Shown piece after piece: positions 4,956 through 43,224 of a stretch of 44,027 nucleotides of DNA (position 1 is its first letter; the number at the start of each line of letters is the position of its first letter). Source of the DNA: Actinomycetes bacterium (GTDB taxonomy: Bacteria > Actinomycetota > Thermoleophilia > Gaiellales > Gaiellaceae); contig JAOPYY010000037.1 in the NCBI GenBank assembly GCA_025964395.1, positions 1 to 44,027 on the forward strand. Direction: 5' to 3'. A model generated the notes under the pieces. It did not search any database. It was not told where the DNA came from and saw only the letters and a list, made by a program, of their open reading frames with translations. The position numbers and the translations under genes are program-made.

Positions 4956-4996
4956 TGCCCCCGACAAGAATCGAACTTGTGCACGCGGTTTAGGAA
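4956..4996 (-). repeat. tRNA-Arg(CCT) 3' fragment, left copy (att-like)
   Basis: Identical over 41 bases to 10334-10374. On the minus strand it reads from the anticodon loop (TTCCTAA) through the 3' anticodon stem, a T-arm (ACAAG-TTCGATT-CTTGT) and acceptor strand CGGGGGC plus discriminator A. The 5' half of the tRNA is missing and identity stops exactly in the anticodon loop, a common crossover point for tyrosine integrases. Best read as an attachment-site scar. Confidence 0.75.
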
Positions 4997-5189
4997 GCTT
5001 CTTGCACGCTCCGGGAATTGCCTGTAAACGACGTGGCTCTCAGTGATCTGGGTGGGGTGTGCGCCAGTGATTGCGCCGGTCTCGCTCTCGAGATCTTTGC
5101 GGCCCCGGTGGAAGGACAACTGCCGCGTCGGGAGGTTCCCGCCTCGGCGCTCGCGCAGCACCTCGGGCCGCGTTACGCTCACGGCAGGG

Positions 5190-8100
5190 ATGACCTGCTC
5201 TGCGTGTGGAACCGAGAACAGGCCGACGGCAAAGTTCTGCGGCGGCTGCGGTGCAGCTCTGGCCGCGAGCTGCCCCGCATGCGGCGCGGCGAACGACCCG
5301 GGCCTTCGGTTCTGCAACGAGTGCGGGGGCGCACTCGGTGAGACTGCAGCCTCGGCCGTTTCGGTTCCTGCGCCTGTCGCCGAGCGAAGGCTCGTCTCCG
5401 TGCTCTTCGCCGACCTCGTCGGGTTCACGACGCTGTCGGAGAACCGCGACAGCGAGGACGTGCGTGAGCTGCTCTCGCGCTACTTCGAGACGGCTCGCCG
5501 CTTGATCGAGCTGTACGGCGGAACCGTCGAGAAGTTCATCGGCGACGCCGTTATGGCCGTGTGGGGGACGCCCGCCGCGACCGAAGACGACGCCGAGCGA
5601 GCCGTCCGCGCCGCCCTCGACCTCCTCGCCGCGGTTTCTGCCCTCGGACAGGAGGTCGGTGCCGAGGGCCTGCGAGCCCGGGCAGGCGTGCTGACCGGGG
5701 AGGCTGCGGTGACGCTCGGGGCGGAGGGCCAGGGGATGGTCGCCGGCGATCTCGTCAACACGGCCTCGCGCATCCAGTCGTCCGCCGAGCCCGGCCAGGT
5801 GCTCGTCGGCGAGGCCACGCGCCGCGCCACCGAGCAGGCGATCGTCTATGCCGAGGCTGGAGCCCACGAACTGAAGGGCAAGCTCGAGCCGATTGAGCTC
5901 TGGCGCGCCGTCCGGATCATCTCCGGGCGCCAAGGCGCGCAGCGCTCGGTCGGACTGGAAGCACCCTTTGTCGGGCGCGACCGCGAGTTGCGCCTCGTCA
6001 AGGAGCTCTTTCACGCGTCGGCAGAGGAGCACAAGGCGCACCTCGCCTCGGTTACCGGCATCGCGGGCATCGGCAAGTCGCGCCTCGTCTGGGAGTTCTA
6101 CAAGTACTTCGACGGGCTGGCCGACACCGTCTACTGGCACCGCGGCCGCTGTCTCGCCTACGGCGACGGTGTCACCTACTGGGCCCTCGCGGACATGGTG
6201 CGCATGCGGGCTCGGATCGCCGAGGACGAGGAGCCGGCCTCGGCGCTCGCGAAACTGGATGCGACGCTGTCGGAGACGATTCTCGACGGCGATGAGCGGA
6301 GCTTCGTCGAGCCGCGGATAGCGCAGTTGTTGGGGCTCGCGGACGCTGCACCGGGTGATCGGGCCGATCTTTTCGCCGCCTGGAGGCTCTTCTTCGAGCG
6401 GCTTGCCGACACCTATCCCACGGTGCTCGTCTTCGAGGATTTGCAGTGGGCCGATGCCAGCCTGCTCGACTTCATCGAGTACCTGCTCGAGTGGTCACGC
6501 TCCTCGCCGCTCCTCGTCCTCACGCTCGCCCGTCCCGAGCTCGCGGACCGGCGCGCGGGGTGGGGCACCGGCCTCCGCAACTTCACGTCGCTCTACCTCG
6601 AGCCGCTCGGCGACGCCGCGATGTCCGAGCTACTTGCGGGCCTCGTCCCGGGGCTGCCTGCCGCCCTGCGCGACCAGATCCTGGCACGGGCCGAGGGCGT
6701 GCCGCTCTACGCGGTCGAGACGGTGCGCATGCTGCTCGACCGTGGGTTGCTCGCCGAGCAAGGCACCGCGTACGTGCTCACCGGCGAAGTCGCGTCGCTC
6801 GAGGTGCCCGCGACGCTGCACGGTTTGATCGCAGCGCGCCTCGACGGGCTTCCGGTCGAGGAGCGGCGCTTGCTGCAGGACGCGGCGGTCGTCGGCAAGA
6901 CGTTCACGCGTGCCGCCGTGGTCGCCGTGACGGGGCTCGGTGAGGACGAGCTCGAACGGCTGCTCGCGTCGCTCGTCCGCAAGGAAGTGCTCTCGCTGCA
7001 GGCCGACCCGCGCTCGCCGGAGCACGGCCAGTACGGCTTCCTGCAGGACCTCGTCCGCCACGTGGCGCTGGAGACGCTCTCGAAGAGAGAGCGGCGGGCC
7101 CGCCATCTCGCTGCTGCGGCGCACCTGGAGAGCGCCTATCCGGACGACGACGAGGTCGTCGAGGTGCTCGCCTCCCACTACCTCGATGCGTACACCGCGC
7201 TGCCGGATGCCGACGACGCCGGTGAGATCCGCACGAAGGCGCGGGCGGCGCTCGAGCGTGCCGGCGACCGCGCGGAGTCCCTCGGTGCCCCCGGCGAAGC
7301 ACGTCGTTACCTCGAACAGGCTGCAGGGCTCACCGACGCCGCACAGAAGCGAGCCGAGCTGCTCGAGCGTGCCGGCATGCTCGCGTTCGACGCGACCGAT
7401 CTCGAGAGCGCAGCTCAGCTGCTCGCCGAGGCGATCGCGCTCTATGAAGCGGAGGGGGGCACCCACGCGGCGGCTCGCGTCTCGGGCCGGCTCGCCATGG
7501 TCGAGCGTTTCCAGGGGCTCTATGACGCAGCGAACGCACGAGCCGAGGCCGCATTCGCGGCCGTCGCGTCGGACGAGCCGGATGCCGACGTCGCCGAGAT
7601 CGCGCTTGGGGTTGCGGCGGGGCGCCTCTTCCGCGGAGATCTCGAGCGCGCGGCGGAGCGGCTCGAACTGGGTCTCGGCGTCGCCGAGGCGCTCGGTTCC
7701 GCCGCTCTGATGTCACGCGGGTTCGTGCTCCGGTCGCAACTTGCCATGGCCCGGTCGCGTCCGCAGGAGGCCCTCGCATTCCTCGAGCGGGGCCTCTCGA
7801 TCGCCCTCGAGCACGACCAGTTCGACCATGCGGCACGGATCTACTTCCACCTCTCCGACCGGGCCTTCCATCGGGACCGTTACGAGGACGCGCACGGCTA
7901 CCTCCTCCAGGCGCTGAAGTTGGCGCAACGCCGTGGCGACCGCCGCGGTCAGATCGCCACCCTGGCCGAGTTGACGTGGCCGCTCAACATGCTGGGCCGG
8001 TGGGACGAGGCGCTCGAGCTATACGGGCAGATCGCGGAGGAGCACATGCTGGCCACGACGACACTGAGCGTGCTCGACGGTGTGGTCGCGATCCATATCC

Positions 8101-8696
8101 AGCGCAGCAATCTCCCCGAGGCAAAACGGATCTTGTCCTTGTTCGCGTCGCTCGAGACGGTGGCCGACGTCCAGGACCGTTCGTCGTATCTCGCCGGTGC
8201 GTCGGCGGTGCGTCTTGCGGAGGGCCGTTACGACGAGGCACTCCGTCTGGGCATCGAAGCCGACACCGTCGCCAGGACCGGCTTCGCGGCGAGCAGCCAG
8301 CAGTCGAAGCAGGGCCTCGTGGTCGCGCTCGAGGCGGCACTGGCTCTCGGGGAGCGGGGGAAGGTCGAGGAAATCGTCGCCGAGATCCTGGCAAGGCAGC
8401 CCGGTCTTCGGCCCCCCTATCTCGAGGCGCATGCGCTCCGCTTCAAGGCACGGCTCGAGGCCTCAGAGGCAGGCTTCGCAGACGCTACGGCGGCGTTCCG
8501 CACCCTCCGGACGCCGTTCTGGGTCGCCGTCGTGTTGCTCGAGCATGCCGAGCTGGTTGCGCAGGAAGGGCGCGCGAGCGAGGCGGAGCCACTCATAGCG
8601 GAGGCACGCGAGACGTTCGAGCGCCTGCGGGCGACACCCTGGCTCGAGCGGGCCGAGGCGATGTCGAGTCTCGGGCTCGTCGCGCGGCCCCAATAG
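5190..8696 (+). CDS. zinc-ribbon/class III nucleotidyl cyclase/AAA ATPase fusion protein
   Basis: 1168 residues from the chosen ATG, preceded by GGCAGGG; the frame is open to a GTG at 5043 but the extra 49 residues look non-coding. The N-terminus is a double zinc ribbon (four CxxC knuckles within residues 3-45). Residues about 67-245 are a class III adenylate/guanylate cyclase with both metal Asp motifs (FADLVGFT and KFIGDAVMAVWG). An AAA/STAND ATPase follows, with Walker A GIAGIGKS and Walker B TVLVFEDLQWAD, then a long Ala/Leu/Glu-rich helical C-terminus of the TPR type. This layout is common in actinobacteria and is thought to couple a signal to cyclic nucleotide synthesis; nucleotide specificity cannot be fixed by eye. 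It lies inside the segment bounded by the 41-bp tRNA-end repeats, so may be part of an acquired module. Confidence 0.9.
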   Translation: MTCSACGTENRPTAKFCGGCGAALAASCPACGAANDPGLRFCNECGGALGETAASAVSVPAPVAERRLVSVLFADLVGFTTLSENRDSEDVRELLSRYFETARRLIELYGGTVEKFIGDAVMAVWGTPAATEDDAERAVRAALDLLAAVSALGQEVGAEGLRARAGVLTGEAAVTLGAEGQGMVAGDLVNTASRIQSSAEPGQVLVGEATRRATEQAIVYAEAGAHELKGKLEPIELWRAVRIISGRQGAQRSVGLEAPFVGRDRELRLVKELFHASAEEHKAHLASVTGIAGIGKSRLVWEFYKYFDGLADTVYWHRGRCLAYGDGVTYWALADMVRMRARIAEDEEPASALAKLDATLSETILDGDERSFVEPRIAQLLGLADAAPGDRADLFAAWRLFFERLADTYPTVLVFEDLQWADASLLDFIEYLLEWSRSSPLLVLTLARPELADRRAGWGTGLRNFTSLYLEPLGDAAMSELLAGLVPGLPAALRDQILARAEGVPLYAVETVRMLLDRGLLAEQGTAYVLTGEVASLEVPATLHGLIAARLDGLPVEERRLLQDAAVVGKTFTRAAVVAVTGLGEDELERLLASLVRKEVLSLQADPRSPEHGQYGFLQDLVRHVALETLSKRERRARHLAAAAHLESAYPDDDEVVEVLASHYLDAYTALPDADDAGEIRTKARAALERAGDRAESLGAPGEARRYLEQAAGLTDAAQKRAELLERAGMLAFDATDLESAAQLLAEAIALYEAEGGTHAAARVSGRLAMVERFQGLYDAANARAEAAFAAVASDEPDADVAEIALGVAAGRLFRGDLERAAERLELGLGVAEALGSAALMSRGFVLRSQLAMARSRPQEALAFLERGLSIALEHDQFDHAARIYFHLSDRAFHRDRYEDAHGYLLQALKLAQRRGDRRGQIATLAELTWPLNMLGRWDEALELYGQIAEEHMLATTTLSVLDGVVAIHIQRSNLPEAKRILSLFASLETVADVQDRSSYLAGASAVRLAEGRYDEALRLGIEADTVARTGFAASSQQSKQGLVVALEAALALGERGKVEEIVAEILARQPGLRPPYLEAHALRFKARLEASEAGFADATAAFRTLRTPFWVAVVLLEHAELVAQEGRASEAEPLIAEARETFERLRATPWLERAEAMSSLGLVARPQ

Positions 8697-8822
8697 ACCC
8701 CCGTCGGGTCGTTTAGCGCTTGCTGCGCTCGACTCAATCCCGGCGACCACCCACGACGATCACGATGCTCCCAGTCGGTCACCCGAACCACGACGCAATC
8801 ATGTTCGGAGACCGGATCGAGC
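8697..8822. other. short non-coding gap
   Basis: Nothing recognised between the cyclase stop and the gene fragment that starts at 8823. Confidence 0.4.
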
Positions 8823-9010
8823 TTAGCCGAGCGCAGCGGCGCGGCCAGTCGCGGTGATGAACTTCTGCCGGTTCGTGTGGTTAGACATCGGCGCTGCGAG
8901 CTCGCTGCTCGCGGCGCCGATGTCCCGCAAGAACGGCTCGTACGAAAGTCCGAACCTAACGGCGTGCAGGTCGGGTTCCGCGTGAGTCGAGTTGACGGCG
9001 CCGAACGGGG
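8823..9010 (-). pseudogene. 3' gene fragment of unknown family
   Basis: A minus-strand frame about 60 codons long without a start codon reads like a genuine protein tail: LHAVRFGLSYEPFLRDIGAA, then SELAAPMSNHTNRQKFITATG, ending at TAA. It begins where the SRPBCC gene ends, so its 5' part has probably been lost. The family was not recognised, and chance cannot be excluded. Confidence 0.3.
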
Positions 9011-9454
9011 TTAGCGTTCGCGCTCGAGGAGCTCTTTGAGGCGCTGGTGGCTCATCGGGATCTCCTTACGGGCGTTGGCGCGGGCGAGCGGCGCGAAGAG
9101 CACGCCGACACCGTGGCCCTTGAGTTCGAATTCGAGGGTCAGCTTGGACCGTTTGCCGCCGTCGAGCGGCTCGACGGTGATGGTCCCAAGCGGGCGAATC
9201 GGGCCGTTGACACCTCGAAACGAGCTCTTGTGCGGCGCGTCGTGCTCGGTGATCTCGTAGCTGATATCGCGAGTGCCTCCCGGCAGCCGCCGTTTGTCCG
9301 TTGCGCGGCTGCCGACCTGCGTTGGTCCGTCGGTCTCGACGTGGACGCTCACTATTTGCTGCTGCCACTCGCCGTGCTTGGCCAGGTCCTCGTAATACCC
9401 GAAGACGTCTTCGGGTTTGCGGTTGATCTCGATGCTGTCGATGATCGGCGCCAT
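9011..9454 (-). CDS. SRPBCC family protein
   Basis: 147 residues. The opening IIDSIEINRKPEDVFGYYED and the later YEITEHD and LEFELKGHG strands match the START-like SRPBCC fold (polyketide cyclase/dehydrase-like, hydrophobic ligand cavity); the exact ligand or reaction is unknown. ATG at 9454 is chosen because CAGGAG sits 8 bases upstream; an in-frame longer version to 9499 lacks this. It is divergent from the TetR gene at 9521 with 66 bases between, so the pair probably forms a regulator-target unit inside the att-flanked segment. Confidence 0.82.
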   Translation of the reverse strand: MAPIIDSIEINRKPEDVFGYYEDLAKHGEWQQQIVSVHVETDGPTQVGSRATDKRRLPGGTRDISYEITEHDAPHKSSFRGVNGPIRPLGTITVEPLDGGKRSKLTLEFELKGHGVGVLFAPLARANARKEIPMSHQRLKELLERER

Positions 9455-9507
9455 CTGCGGGCTCTCCTGACGGGTGCCGGTGGCGCAAGTGGCGACCACC
9501 GTATTGG

Positions 9508-9518
9508 TTAGACTCTAA
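9508..9518. promoter_or_regulatory. operator-like palindrome
   Basis: Perfect TTAGA-C-TCTAA palindrome two bases before the TetR ATG and within the gap to the divergent SRPBCC gene. Likely self-regulation site, though short for a full TetR operator. Confidence 0.4.
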
Positions 9519-9520
9519 GT

Positions 9521-10198
9521 ATGGCTAATAAGGGTGATCGAGTCAAACGTGCCTACGATTCCCGGCTCCGACTCGAGCGAGCGGATGCGACTCGGCTCGC
9601 GATCGCGGCTGCTGCCGGCCGCTTGTTCGCCGAACGCGGCTACGCCGCAACATCGATCGAGGAGATCGCCGCCGCCGCAGGTGTCGGCCGCGCCACCGTC
9701 TTCACCTCCGTCGGCGGCAAGCCGGAGCTGCTGAAAGAGGCCTACCGGCTCGCTGTCCGCGGCCCGGCCAACGCGAACACACCGCTCGGTCAGCAGGCGC
9801 GTAGCCGCAGAATCTCGGCCGAGCCCAACGCGCACAAGCTGCTCGCCGGCTACGCCGGCGTGATGGTCGAGGTCGGCCGCCGGCTCGCCCCGCTCTACGA
9901 AGCCGTCCGGGCGGCCGCGCACGCCAACCCCGACGCCCGCGAGTTCTGGCACCTCATCACCGAGGAACGACGCACCGCGGCGACCGGAATCGTCCGCCGA
10001 CTCGCGGAACGCGACGCCCTGCTCCACGGCCTCGACCGCCAAAGCGCCAGCGACATCCTCTGGGTCCTCAACGACCCAGGCCTCTACCAACTGCTCGTCA
10101 CACAACGGCGCTGGACACAACGCCGCTTCCGCAGCTGGCTCACCAACAGCATGCAAGCGCAACTCCTTGAACCACCGGACCGCACAGTCGGCAGATGA
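9521..10198 (+). CDS. TetR/AcrR family transcriptional regulator
   Basis: 225 residues with a classic N-terminal helix-turn-helix: AAAAGRLFAERGYAATSIEE, then IAAAAGVGRATVFTSVGGK (about residues 28-70). The C-terminal ligand domain is not assignable. No Shine-Dalgarno sequence precedes the ATG, so the message may be leaderless, which is common in actinobacteria. Divergent from the SRPBCC gene, its probable target. Confidence 0.88.
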   Translation: MANKGDRVKRAYDSRLRLERADATRLAIAAAAGRLFAERGYAATSIEEIAAAAGVGRATVFTSVGGKPELLKEAYRLAVRGPANANTPLGQQARSRRISAEPNAHKLLAGYAGVMVEVGRRLAPLYEAVRAAAHANPDAREFWHLITEERRTAATGIVRRLAERDALLHGLDRQSASDILWVLNDPGLYQLLVTQRRWTQRRFRSWLTNSMQAQLLEPPDRTVGR

Positions 10199-10333
10199 CA
10201 TCACGTTCTTGAGGTGGGCCGCGAAGTCGTGCGCTCCGGCTCCTACGGTCGACCGCACCAGGAGCGAGCGTCGCGTCGACGTAGTGGAGGTCGCCGTGGT
10301 TGAACATGCGCTCGAAGCCTTCGAGCGGATCAG

Positions 10334-10374
10334 TGCCCCCGACAAGAATCGAACTTGTGCACGCGGTTTAGGAA
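10334..10374 (-). repeat. tRNA-Arg(CCT) 3' fragment, right copy (att-like)
   Basis: Second copy of the 41-bp repeat at 4956-4996. Here the bases just beyond the repeat also supply the 5' anticodon stem (GCGGT pairing with ACCGC around loop TTCCTAA, anticodon CCT), but no D-arm or 5' acceptor strand (expected GCCCCCG) follows, so it is not a working tRNA gene. The two copies bound a 5.4-kb segment holding the cyclase, the SRPBCC gene and its TetR gene. Confidence 0.75.
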
Positions 10375-10651
10375 ACCGCCGGCGCCTCCCGCGAGAGAAT
10401 CGGGTCACGCATTCACGGGAATAGGTGACGAATCGACGTCCTTGCTCGGGCAGTGACCGTTTGGATTCCCCCGGTACTCGGACTAGATTCATGCGTGTGA
10501 CGTCAGGTGCGACAACGACAAGGGCTATAGCGGGAGACCATCTCGACAGGCTGAACATGGTCGCGAGCTGGCACACCCACCTGAACACAATCAGCGCCGC
10601 TGGAATTGCCGCAACGGCGGCCATCGCAACCCACGCGAAGCACCGTCGGGC

Positions 10652-17305: not shown

Positions 17306-19393
17306 TTATGCAGCCAGGATCTGGTCGAGGATCGACTTCATGGACTCAGGACGATGCTCGGACATTGCAAGCTTGTCGAGGACGACATTCCGGAACGGCT
17401 CGTAAGCGACTCCGCCGAGATGCGCACCGACAAAGCGCTTAAGGATGAGTCGGCCTGGAAACGCTCGGGTCCATTCGTCAGTATCAAGAGCAGTCGCTAG
17501 CTCGCTGCGAACTTCGGCCGCCCGCTGGGTGAGCGCTTCCTCCGTAGAAGCAGCGACCACGGCTGCGATGCGGCCGGCTGAAGCCGTGATCGACGGTAGA
17601 AGGCTCTGCGCGACCCCGTTAGTGTCGGGCGAGCCTTTAACGTTGATGGCCGTAACGATCTGCTCGTTGACTTCCGCCTGGATGCGCTCCAGCGTGAGTC
17701 TGTCCAATAGTTCGGCCGCCTGAGTCTTTAACGCAACCATCACCTCATCGTCGGACGAGAAGAGCTCGCTGCCCGACAGGGTCGCGCACGCCTCGCGGAT
17801 CGCTGAAGGAACCAGCAAGAAGTTTTCAACGTGGTAGACGTCCCACGTGAACTCTTGCGTGTGACCCTCTGGTGGTACGTAGATTTCGGCGTCCTTGTCC
17901 ACGATGGCGAAGAAGCGGTTAGCAATGCCAACCTGGCTGACGGTCTCGTTGAGCGCGGCGTACAAGCTGCGTACGCGCCTCTTAGATCCCGCGCTGACTA
18001 AGTTGACGCGCTTTGAGAAGTCTGGGAAGAGGCGACGGATGAACTTCTCGTCGAACGCGTCCTCACTAGCACCCTCTAGGATGACGAGCTTCGCGTGGGG
18101 CCGATATGCGGCAAGGTCGCCTACAAGGTCGACGACGACGCGCTCAACATCGTCGTCGAGCACTACTTCAGATGCTTGATTGCCGGTTGAAGTCGTAGCA
18201 GTCAGCATGTGGTAAACGCGATAGTTGGAGTTGCCGATTGCCTGGCGGAGCAGGGTGTCGGAGTGCGTCACGAGCCAAAGCTGGTTGCCTTGAGCGACTC
18301 CGAGATGGCGATAGTAAAAGTCGGCAAAGCCTTGGAGCAGGCTCGGATTAAGGTGCAGTTCGGGCTCGTCCAATAGGATCACTGAGCCGCGCGGAATGGA
18401 GTTCCTGAGTCGCAGGTACCCGTAAAGGATTTCCTTTTCGCCGGAACTCAGGTCGTCGATGTCATGAACAGCACCGTCCCCCACGCGAACGGGGAAGGCG
18501 AGACTTCCGCCGCGTTCAGGTCGCACGCCTTCATACTCTTTGTCTGGGAAGAACGTCCGGAAGAGCTCCTTTAGAGTCTCGTTGAGATCCTCGCTCGCTT
18601 CGGGTGCATCACCCGATTCAGCAGAGATGAGGGTCCGTAGGTAGCCGGACGCTAGCTCGGTCTTGACGTTCTGATACTTGGCTTGCCAGTTATAGAGAGA
18701 CTGTGTCCTGCGCTGATTTTCGAATTCGCGTGCGTCGAGATTGATGCCCTGAAGCGCCTGCCGGGGGTAGGCGCGTTGCGCGCTGTGGTACTCGATCACG
18801 CCCAAGTGCTGCGGCTCGTACGCCTGGAACGAGACTTCGGCCGGCACGCATTCCTGGATGTCTAGATTGGAATCCGGTGTGATGGCGACGAGTAGCTGAT
18901 GTTCTTCGTTGTTGTTGAGGGCGGCAACAAGCTTGTTGGTGATCTCGTCGATTAGCGCCTGGACTGCGTCGCGATGTTGTGCGAGTTGTGTCGCGATCGC
19001 CATGCGGTTGAAGCTCCAGTGATCCATGCGCTGCCCCGTCGCGCGCTGCCAGGCCAGCGGCCATACAAGGTCGGCCGCGTTGGCAATCAGAAACTCCCGC
19101 TCTGTCTGGCTGAATTCGATGGTTGCCGCGATCTCAACGGGCTCGTTGAGATCCCGAAACATCGCTCGGATCGCGGTGCGATCCTGCGGGTTGATGGCGA
19201 ACTCGCCGAACCATTGCATGTACTCGTCGGCCTGATAGCCCCCGTAGACGGATTTGAGCAGTCTGATCGCGTCAAAGACGCAGGACTTTCCTGAACCGTT
19301 AGGCCCCGCGATGACGATGAAGTCCTTGAGATCGTCGACCTCAAATAGCCGCACGGCGCGGAGGTTCGCCACCCGCAGAGAACGAAATTTCAA
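17306..19393 (-). CDS. AAA-DUF4435 (TOPRIM-like) protein, fused PARIS-type defence candidate
   Basis: 695 residues. N-terminal ABC/AAA_15 ATPase: MKFRSLRVANLRAVRLFEV, Walker A GPNGSGKS (30-37), signature LSSGEKE (about 315), Walker B VILLDEPELHLNP (about 338), H-switch THSD (about 376). C-terminal DUF4435/TOPRIM-like domain (about 434-536) with VILEG, AIVDKDAE and YHVENFLL. In the known PARIS system, AriA is the AAA_15 ATPase and AriB the DUF4435 effector, a tRNA nuclease triggered by phage anti-restriction proteins; single-chain fusions are known. Start: TTG at 19393 follows GAGGGA and puts KFRSLR at the usual N-terminus; another TTG lies 27 bases upstream. Flanked by a Rep-like gene and a ribbon-helix-helix gene beside integration scars. 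Lower, more even GC than neighbours supports transfer. An OLD-like nuclease is the alternative. Confidence 0.85.
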   Translation of the reverse strand: MKFRSLRVANLRAVRLFEVDDLKDFIVIAGPNGSGKSCVFDAIRLLKSVYGGYQADEYMQWFGEFAINPQDRTAIRAMFRDLNEPVEIAATIEFSQTEREFLIANAADLVWPLAWQRATGQRMDHWSFNRMAIATQLAQHRDAVQALIDEITNKLVAALNNNEEHQLLVAITPDSNLDIQECVPAEVSFQAYEPQHLGVIEYHSAQRAYPRQALQGINLDAREFENQRRTQSLYNWQAKYQNVKTELASGYLRTLISAESGDAPEASEDLNETLKELFRTFFPDKEYEGVRPERGGSLAFPVRVGDGAVHDIDDLSSGEKEILYGYLRLRNSIPRGSVILLDEPELHLNPSLLQGFADFYYRHLGVAQGNQLWLVTHSDTLLRQAIGNSNYRVYHMLTATTSTGNQASEVVLDDDVERVVVDLVGDLAAYRPHAKLVILEGASEDAFDEKFIRRLFPDFSKRVNLVSAGSKRRVRSLYAALNETVSQVGIANRFFAIVDKDAEIYVPPEGHTQEFTWDVYHVENFLLVPSAIREACATLSGSELFSSDDEVMVALKTQAAELLDRLTLERIQAEVNEQIVTAINVKGSPDTNGVAQSLLPSITASAGRIAAVVAASTEEALTQRAAEVRSELATALDTDEWTRAFPGRLILKRFVGAHLGGVAYEPFRNVVLDKLAMSEHRPESMKSILDQILAA

Positions 19394-19860: not shown

Positions 19861-19952
19861 TCGAACCGCATTACAAGGGTCAGCAGTTGGCTGACCTCCT
19901 GAACGTGAACCAGCTCGGTCGTTACGACTTAGCCGGACCGTACAGGACCTGA
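19857..19952 (+). pseudogene. truncated excisionase-like gene
   Basis: GTG overlaps the stop of the RHH gene (GTGA) and reads MIEPHYKGQQLADLLNVN before the frame enters the 125-bp repeat at 19911 and stops at 19952. The first 18 residues resemble the opening of MerR-like/Xis helix-turn-helix proteins (...LADLLNVN, first helix of the HTH). The rest was apparently replaced when the repeat was joined here. Too short for a firm family call. Confidence 0.4.
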
Positions 19953-20035
19953 GCCAAATCTGCTGGCGTCGGTAAGACACTGAACGACGTGGCACGACTG
20001 CGTTCGCGTGTCGAATCTGACACGGAATCTGACAC
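19922..20035 (-). pseudogene. relic of a gene 3' end, possibly integrase (copy B)
   Basis: Counterpart of 1367-1492. The minus strand reads GVSDSVSDSTRERSR and ends DLAQVLYGPAKS before TAA (19922-19924). DNA similarity to copy A begins abruptly at 19911, where the excisionase-like coding sequence stops, marking a recombination junction. Another minus-strand frame further on ends LSVLLGRLPSGTPAD at a stop near 20052; it was not recognised. Confidence 0.4.
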
Positions 20036-20409
20036 GCCTGGATGCGCGGGGTTAGTCCGCGGGCGTGCCGCTTGGCAGCCGGCCGAGTAGCACCGAGAGC
20101 GTCCACCTTAGAGCGAGCTGAACTCGCACATGCGTAGAGAGCCTCGGGGCTAGCTGTCCCTTTCTAGACGGCTCCACTCTGATTGATGAAATCCTGCATC
20201 ACGGACAGCTCTTCGTTGAGAGACACTCGCTGCTCGCGAAGTGCCCTAACTCGCCGCGATAAGCGCTGGGCGGCAACGACGGATAACCAAAGAACGTCTT
20301 GCGCAGAAGGTGGAGAACCAAGAACCTCCCGTTCGGATCCCGCGACCACGGCAGTGCGGGTCACCGGGTGTGGCGGTGGCCAGCACGCCCAGACCGGGAC
20401 GCAGGAACG
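20036..20409. other. gene-poor stretch, one doubtful small ORF
   Basis: No recognised gene. A minus-strand frame at 20164-20364 (66 residues, GTG start) encodes a charged helical peptide (AQRLSRRVRALREQRVSLNE) that could form a coiled coil, but has no recognised family or clear ribosome binding site; it is probably spurious. Confidence 0.3.
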
Positions 20410-42441: not shown

Positions 42442-42912
42442 GTGAAACGTTGGTGGGTCGCTAACGGTGGCGCGGTTGCGCTTGTGCTCCTCGGCATCTC
42501 AGTCGGGGGCTTTACGAATGTATGGGCTGGACTCGCGCTAATAGTCGTCGGTCTCATCCTCTGGGTTGCCGGGCTGCGTCGGAACCATCAGCCCATCGAT
42601 TCACCCGCAGTCGTTGCTCGGGAGCTTCGCCCTGACCTGAGAATCTTTGACGTGCACTCGACAGGCGGTGGATCCGGTTACGTCGACTTCAGCTTCTACG
42701 TCTCGAACTATGGAGACGTCAAGCAGCGGACAATACTGCTGGCAATCCTTCTAGAGCAGACGGGACTCCAACCGTTGCGGGATGCCGGCATCGGCCCTCG
42801 AAGAGATGGCACTGAGTGCCCGCTTGCAAGGGTCGTGCTGCTTCCCGATGAACTACGCCGCCTACGGCAAGCAATGTCACGTGCCACCGGTTGCGCCCGC
42901 TGGGCTCCATAA
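42442..42912 (+). CDS. small membrane protein, 3' end disrupted
   Basis: 156 residues from GTG. Two membrane helices near the start: VANGGAVALVLLGISVGG and VWAGLALIVVGLILWVAGLR, then a soluble, beta-rich tail (YVDFSFYVSNYGDVKQRTIL). The final residues RATGCARWAP are encoded by the first copy of the 40-bp direct repeat, so the native C-terminus has probably been replaced. No ribosome binding site was found and the start is uncertain. Family not recognised. Confidence 0.5.
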   Translation: MKRWWVANGGAVALVLLGISVGGFTNVWAGLALIVVGLILWVAGLRRNHQPIDSPAVVARELRPDLRIFDVHSTGGGSGYVDFSFYVSNYGDVKQRTILLAILLEQTGLQPLRDAGIGPRRDGTECPLARVVLLPDELRRLRQAMSRATGCARWAP

Positions 42913-42921
42913 ATGCTCCAT
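42882..42921. repeat. 40-bp direct repeat, copy 1
   Basis: Matches 43086-43125 at 38 of 40 bases; the copies are 204 bases apart, same orientation. On the minus strand both read MEHLWS(P/Q)AGAT. Overlaps the end of the membrane protein gene. Confidence 0.7.
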
Positions 42922-43224
42922 CCCTTGGCTGGAGATCGCCGATGGCCAAAGGCTTCGGACGTCCGCTTTGCGCGTGTCGAATGTTGAGTACTTCTCTGTA
43001 TCTCCGAAACCGTTGCCGTGGGTTGCCACCGGTTGCCGATCGGCTTGTTTGAGCCGTTTTCGGGGCCTTCCCATTTGCGATCGGTTGCCACTGGTTGCGC
43101 CCGCTTGGCTCCATAAATGCTCCATGCCGGCCCGAGCCGTCCTGGACAGACGGATCAGTGAAGGGGCTGGTGGTGAGACCCACTACGAAGCTGGCCTCGC
43201 GGCCGGGCTGGGTTACGTGGAGGC
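42913..43224. other. scarred non-coding stretch
   Basis: Contains the second 40-bp repeat and an internal partial copy (TGCCACCGGTTGC near 43024). Open minus-strand frames cross it but none has a recognised domain. Possibly the remains of an integrated element's end. Confidence 0.4.
43086..43125. repeat. 40-bp direct repeat, copy 2
   Basis: Second copy of 42882-42921 with two mismatches. Minus strand reads MEHLWSQAGATSGNRSQM. Confidence 0.7.

Follow-up and report, generated by a model that had tools for sequence, protein, structure and literature searches.

Probable remains of a genomic island between two tRNA-Arg(CCT) 3' halves in an actinobacterial assembly, and an integration hotspot among its relatives

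Three genes are located between two copies of the 3' half of a tRNA-Arg(CCT) in the 44,027-bp window analysed here, which is the entire contig C246 of a 3.17-Mb, 281-contig assembly (G000) that is about 89% complete (Table 1). Domain searches of the open reading frames of this segment bear out the first-pass annotation, which had described the cargo as a cyclase/AAA protein and an SRPBCC/TetR pair. The TetR-family regulator has a best match of 37% identity among 60 relatives. A homologue of the cyclase (74% amino acid identity over 428 aa) is encoded within the tRNA-Arg(CCT) island of relative G004, which weakly points to a possible exchange of cargo at this tRNA gene, and the sharing could be coincidental, since cyclase paralogues are numerous in the genus.

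Comparison of sequences within the window reveals that the two tRNA halves form a perfect direct repeat of 41 bp on the minus strand (4956-4996 and 10334-10374), so that the earlier report of two identical 41-bp tRNA-Arg(CCT) 3' halves holds both for their identity and for their positions. The minus-strand 41-mer, TTCCTAAACCGCGTGCACAAGTTCGATTCTTGTCGGGGGCA, comprises the anticodon loop, the 3' strand of the anticodon stem, the T arm, the 3' strand of the acceptor stem and the discriminator base. Aligned with the intact gene, both copies span the tRNA from position 32, where the anticodon loop begins, to the discriminator A. The match to the intact gene extends over 41 bp in the left copy and 46 bp in the right copy, which also carries GCGGT, the 5' strand of the anticodon stem, and a complete anticodon stem-loop can therefore be folded from it. 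The claim that neither repeat has the tRNA 5' half needs correction to this extent, and it is right for the D arm and the 5' strand of the acceptor stem, which are missing from both copies. A 17-base sub-word of the repeat is present in the window in two exact copies, against 0.08 matches (with up to three mismatches) expected from a dinucleotide shuffle.

Table 1. Positions of the genes, tRNA halves and arm sequences of the segment within the window
Feature	Position	Strand	Evidence
Left 3' half of tRNA-Arg(CCT), att core of 41 bp, from anticodon-loop base 32	4956..4996	-	Perfect repeat; exact match to the intact tRNA on C94/C196
Island-side arm beside the left core, collinear with the G011:C11 island end	4997..5080	-	84-bp ungapped match, E 1.5e-9, at equal distance from the core
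Arm-type repeat ACTGGCGCA in the left arm	5060-5068		
Arm-type repeat ACCGGCGCA in the left arm	5072-5080		
Zinc-ribbon / class III adenylate-guanylate cyclase / AAA_16 / TPR protein, 1217 aa, likely start ATG 5190	5043..8696	+	Pfam DZR, Guanylate_cyc, AAA_16, TPR
SRPBCC (Polyketide_cyc2) protein	9011..9499	-	Domain annotation
TetR-family regulator, divergent from the SRPBCC gene	9521..10198	+	Domain annotation
Right 3' half of tRNA-Arg(CCT), 46 bp, with the 5' strand of the anticodon stem	10334..10379	-	Repeat and alignment to the intact tRNA

The exact 41-mer occurs at four places in the assembly, two of them in the window. The other two belong to intact 72-nt copies of tRNA-Arg(CCT) with the same 3' half (C94:1-72, minus strand, and C196:56-127, plus strand), located at overlapping contig ends and representing the same tRNA. 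Thus, the tRNA gene lies outside the window, as had been suggested, and the repeat is not scattered through the genome. The overlap between C94 and C196 is exactly 127 bp long and ends at the last base of the tRNA, and the contigs were left unmerged, as would be expected of a branch of the assembly graph at the 3' base of the tRNA. The natural reading is that both copies represent one tRNA gene at this branch and that, in the population sampled, the tRNA would be continued at its 3' end by at least two different sequences; the bin lacks the second branch. A search for contig-end overlaps joining C246 to C94 or C196 found none, and neither an intact tRNA nor a third half of tRNA-Arg is present in the 33.6 kb from the right copy to the end of the window.

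The 3' half (with up to three mismatches) was found in 14 genomes among the 60 relatives searched. Orphan 3' halves without the tRNA 5' half are present in G002, G008, G011 (two copies), G012 and G024, which belong to the genus and the family, and an additional one was found in JAICWC among the GTDB contigs; the orphan halves mostly start at loop base 32 or a few bases upstream. The distance from the intact gene to the half is 3.9 kb in G002, 4.4 kb in G008 and 8.2 kb in G011. The G002 island encodes a 401-aa tyrosine integrase adjoining the tRNA and a Fic protein, and the G011 island encodes a XamI-type restriction enzyme, an N6 methylase, a helix-turn-helix protein and a 413-aa tyrosine integrase adjoining the half. 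In the G008 island, as in the window, no integrase was detected. A homologue of the G002 integrase (77% identical) is located immediately after the tRNA in JANDLU ('Candidatus Gaiellasilicea maunaloa'). These islands, in which 4 to 8 kb separate the tRNA from the half and two of which carry tyrosine integrases, agree with the proposal of repeated integrations at the tRNA gene, and tRNA-Arg(CCT) is, judging by the sequences compared, a repeatedly used integration hotspot in the genus.

The genes upstream of the tRNA are conserved in G000, G002, G004, G008 and G011, whereas the downstream genes differ; as the downstream region differs in most relatives, the native downstream neighbour of the tRNA cannot be fixed. 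A Fic gene near tRNA-Arg(CCT) or its half is common to G002, G024 and JACDCN, which supports a putative exchange of cargo at this tRNA. The segment of the window did not turn up as a unit in the 12 other genomes of the genus, where the good matches are limited to cyclase paralogues and the tRNA sequence, and no empty (joined) site for it was found. Among the GTDB contigs, the exact 41-mer is present only in actinobacterial assemblies, several of which are labelled Thermoleophilia. A phage origin was considered and rejected; a search of IMG/VR did not find the exact 41-mer. The intact tRNA-Arg(CCT) of G012 and two of its 3' halves (C166, C129 and C30) are each followed by the same sequence of 113-121 bp; one of these halves has an altered loop (TTTCCCAA), and a further half is truncated at its 3' end. 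Such an arrangement would be expected of a tandem array.

The two ends of the segment differ in what remains of the arms. The island end of G011:C11, with which the sequence beside the left core is collinear, in turn aligns with the island end of G024:C49 (E 2e-4). The left arm contains tandem ACYGGCGCA repeats. In 61 genomes, the doubled motif ACTGGCGCR-N(0-4)-ACTGGCGCR was found 13 times and the reversed control 2 times. It recurs about 100-116 bp downstream of tRNA-Ser, tRNA-SeC and tRNA-Arg(CCT) genes of relatives (L135, L138, L139, L142, L145 and L146), a distribution that fits a candidate arm-type binding site of an integrase. Its assignment to integrases of the G002 type was rejected, as a recognisable fragment of such an integrase was found near one copy only (G021:C134); the genes scanned beside the tRNA-Ser copies do not encode integrases. 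The right end, whose core is kept and whose arm was not recognised, shares only 8 bp (CTGATCCG) with the stretch that follows tRNA-Arg(CCT) in G004.

That no integrase is left in the segment, as the first-pass annotation had claimed, agrees with the open reading frames, a profile search and tblastn with the integrases of relatives, none of which revealed one. The tyrosine integrases of G002 and G011 gave chance matches only, so that no remnant of this class was accepted. A possible serine-recombinase remnant before the right half was also rejected: about 13 identical residues of this tblastn match (10240-10368) come from the tRNA core and the rest is at chance level. In the G000 assembly as a whole, from which an integrase could be missing given its completeness, PF00589 identified only a XerC/XerD-like pair on C144, and no PF07508 recombinase was found.

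Another tRNA gene has left traces in the same window. The last 21 nt of a tRNA-Val(CAC) at 1346-1366 are followed by a 130-bp sequence (1364-1493), which is repeated with 80% identity 18.5 kb away (19907-20036), and each copy ends in tandem AATCTGACAC repeats. The stretches 1346-1493 and 19907-20036 look like the ends of a second type of tRNA island, and these remnants make the left 20 kb of the window a mosaic of island ends. No other match to the tRNA-Val(CAC) 3' sequence was found in the assembly. The only tRNA predicted by ARAGORN in the window, a 'tRNA-Val(aac)' at 19100-19196, is located inside an AAA-ATPase reading frame, has no Rfam support and is most likely a false positive.

Positions 4997-10333 are very probably the remains of a small genomic island that entered by site-specific recombination at tRNA-Arg(CCT) with the crossover in the anticodon loop. 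In such an event, recombination between the tRNA gene and an element that brings its own copy of the 3' half would restore the intact gene on one side and displace the original half to the other; a series of events at one gene would leave similarly oriented 3' halves separated by cargo. In the window, two halves would be left from such a series, with the intact tRNA, presumably linked to them, off the contig. The island's own integrase may have been lost or never present, in which case the segment would move only when the integrase of another island acts on its ends. The most plausible reading of the segment is a decayed member of a tandem array of tRNA islands, perhaps one that can be mobilized in cis (CIME-like). 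The insertion of islands at tRNA genes is a well-known type of event, and the lineage is little studied.

In a survey of tRNA and tmRNA islands, 2083 of 3919 were located at anticodon-centred sites, and 125 tandem arrays were reported (PMC4383910). As in the anticodon-loop islands (the 'A' sites of Islander, PMC4383910; the sublocations of Williams 2002), an island end is marked in the window by a displaced, gene-oriented 3' fragment that starts in the anticodon loop; the cognate intact tRNA is present in the genome (C94/C196), and such islands at the tRNA-Arg(CCT) of relatives carry tyrosine integrases. The window segment differs from them in having a 3' half at both ends, where G002, G008 and G011 have the intact tRNA at the other end of the same molecule, and in having no integrase gene within the island, which G002 and G011 possess. 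A standard search, which relies on a tRNA, its fragment and an integrase, would therefore miss it, and tandem island remnants without integrases in general escape the standard island finders. CIMEs, in turn, have lost integration and transfer genes, keep their attachment sites and often lie beside other islands (Pavlovic 2004 and Bellanger 2011, as described in PMC5704250). The segment resembles them in the lack of integration genes, in the attachment-site cores at both ends and in the use of one tRNA gene by several islands in the lineage, and it may work like a CIME; unlike in CIMEs, a full attachment site with core and arm was recognised at the left end only, and neither a mobilizing element nor transfer was seen. 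The analysis assigns a hotspot of repeated integration to an actinobacterial lineage that is known almost only from metagenome assemblies.

The same two halves might instead be the ends of separate, unrelated integrations, so that the sequence between them would consist of leftover pieces of at least two islands and rearranged chromosome. This is conceivable though on the whole doubtful. The unequal length of the copies (41 versus 46 bp), their unrelated flanks, the recognisable arm at one end only and the tRNA-Val-type ends on either side, which make the region a mosaic, would all be accommodated by it. Against it, the two halves point the same way and their cores are identical, an arrangement also found in G002, G008 and G011 islands, and the length of the core varies between the island ends of relatives as well. 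A join made by the assembler over the 41-bp repeat is highly improbable. The assembly is fragmented and its contigs do break at tRNA-Arg(CCT), but the overlap of C94 and C196 suggests a k-mer above 41 bp (about 127), and unique sequence would have been needed to bridge the repeat; moreover, another assembly contains an independent island end that is homologous to the left one.

Whether the remains of the island retain some mobility is a separate matter. An integrase from a co-resident island, or one encoded at another locus of the cell, might still excise a circle of 5378 bp between the 41-bp halves: the cores are intact and identical, the left arm retains arm-type repeats, and the contig break at the intact tRNA suggests that the sequences after it vary in the sampled population. 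We consider present mobility unlikely, given that the segment's own, incomplete assembly holds no PF00589 proteins beyond the XerC/XerD-like pair and no PF07508 recombinase, and that arm sites were not recognised at the right end.

A different class of enzymes may act at the same tRNA gene in a relative. In G004, a gene encoding a large serine recombinase of 500 aa (L058:4976-6478) adjoins tRNA-Arg(CCT), its reading frame ends antisense inside the tRNA, and a 19-bp T-arm fragment in the same orientation is located 12.0 kb from the tRNA. Homologues in the family (L158, L179, L163, L169 and L160) end likewise in or at tRNA-Val (CAC), tRNA-Ala (TGC, GGC), tRNA-Lys (TTT) and tmRNA genes, and these antisense ends give the recombinases C-termini such as VPPTRIELVHTV or GIEPATPRV. 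Within the stretches read, a displaced fragment was found for the G004 recombinase only. Integration of serine recombinases in tRNA genes is reported to be rare, with examples in mycobacterial AICEs (tRNA-Leu) and in phage phiRSM1 (tRNA-Ser) (PMC3218068). The relatives hint at the use of a single tRNA gene by integrases of both classes, and G004, with its recombinase and 19-bp fragment at tRNA-Arg(CCT), provides the likeness to serine-recombinase islands. The window segment differs from these in that its cores start in the anticodon loop, as in the tyrosine-integrase islands of relatives, and it contains neither a recombinase gene nor a convincing remnant of one. As a speculation that we regard as rather improbable, tRNA-Arg(CCT) might serve in the family as a dock both for tyrosine integrases, acting at the anticodon loop, and for large serine recombinases, acting at the T arm and encoded by genes that end antisense in the target tRNA, so that segments without an integrase would persist and be movable by either class.

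Near the opposite end of the window, two 43-bp repeats that are 93% identical and 204 bp apart (42882-43130) translate to a repeated GMEHLWS peptide. Part of this region (43008-43130) has three matches of about 90% identity in G004 and G008, two of them near contig ends.
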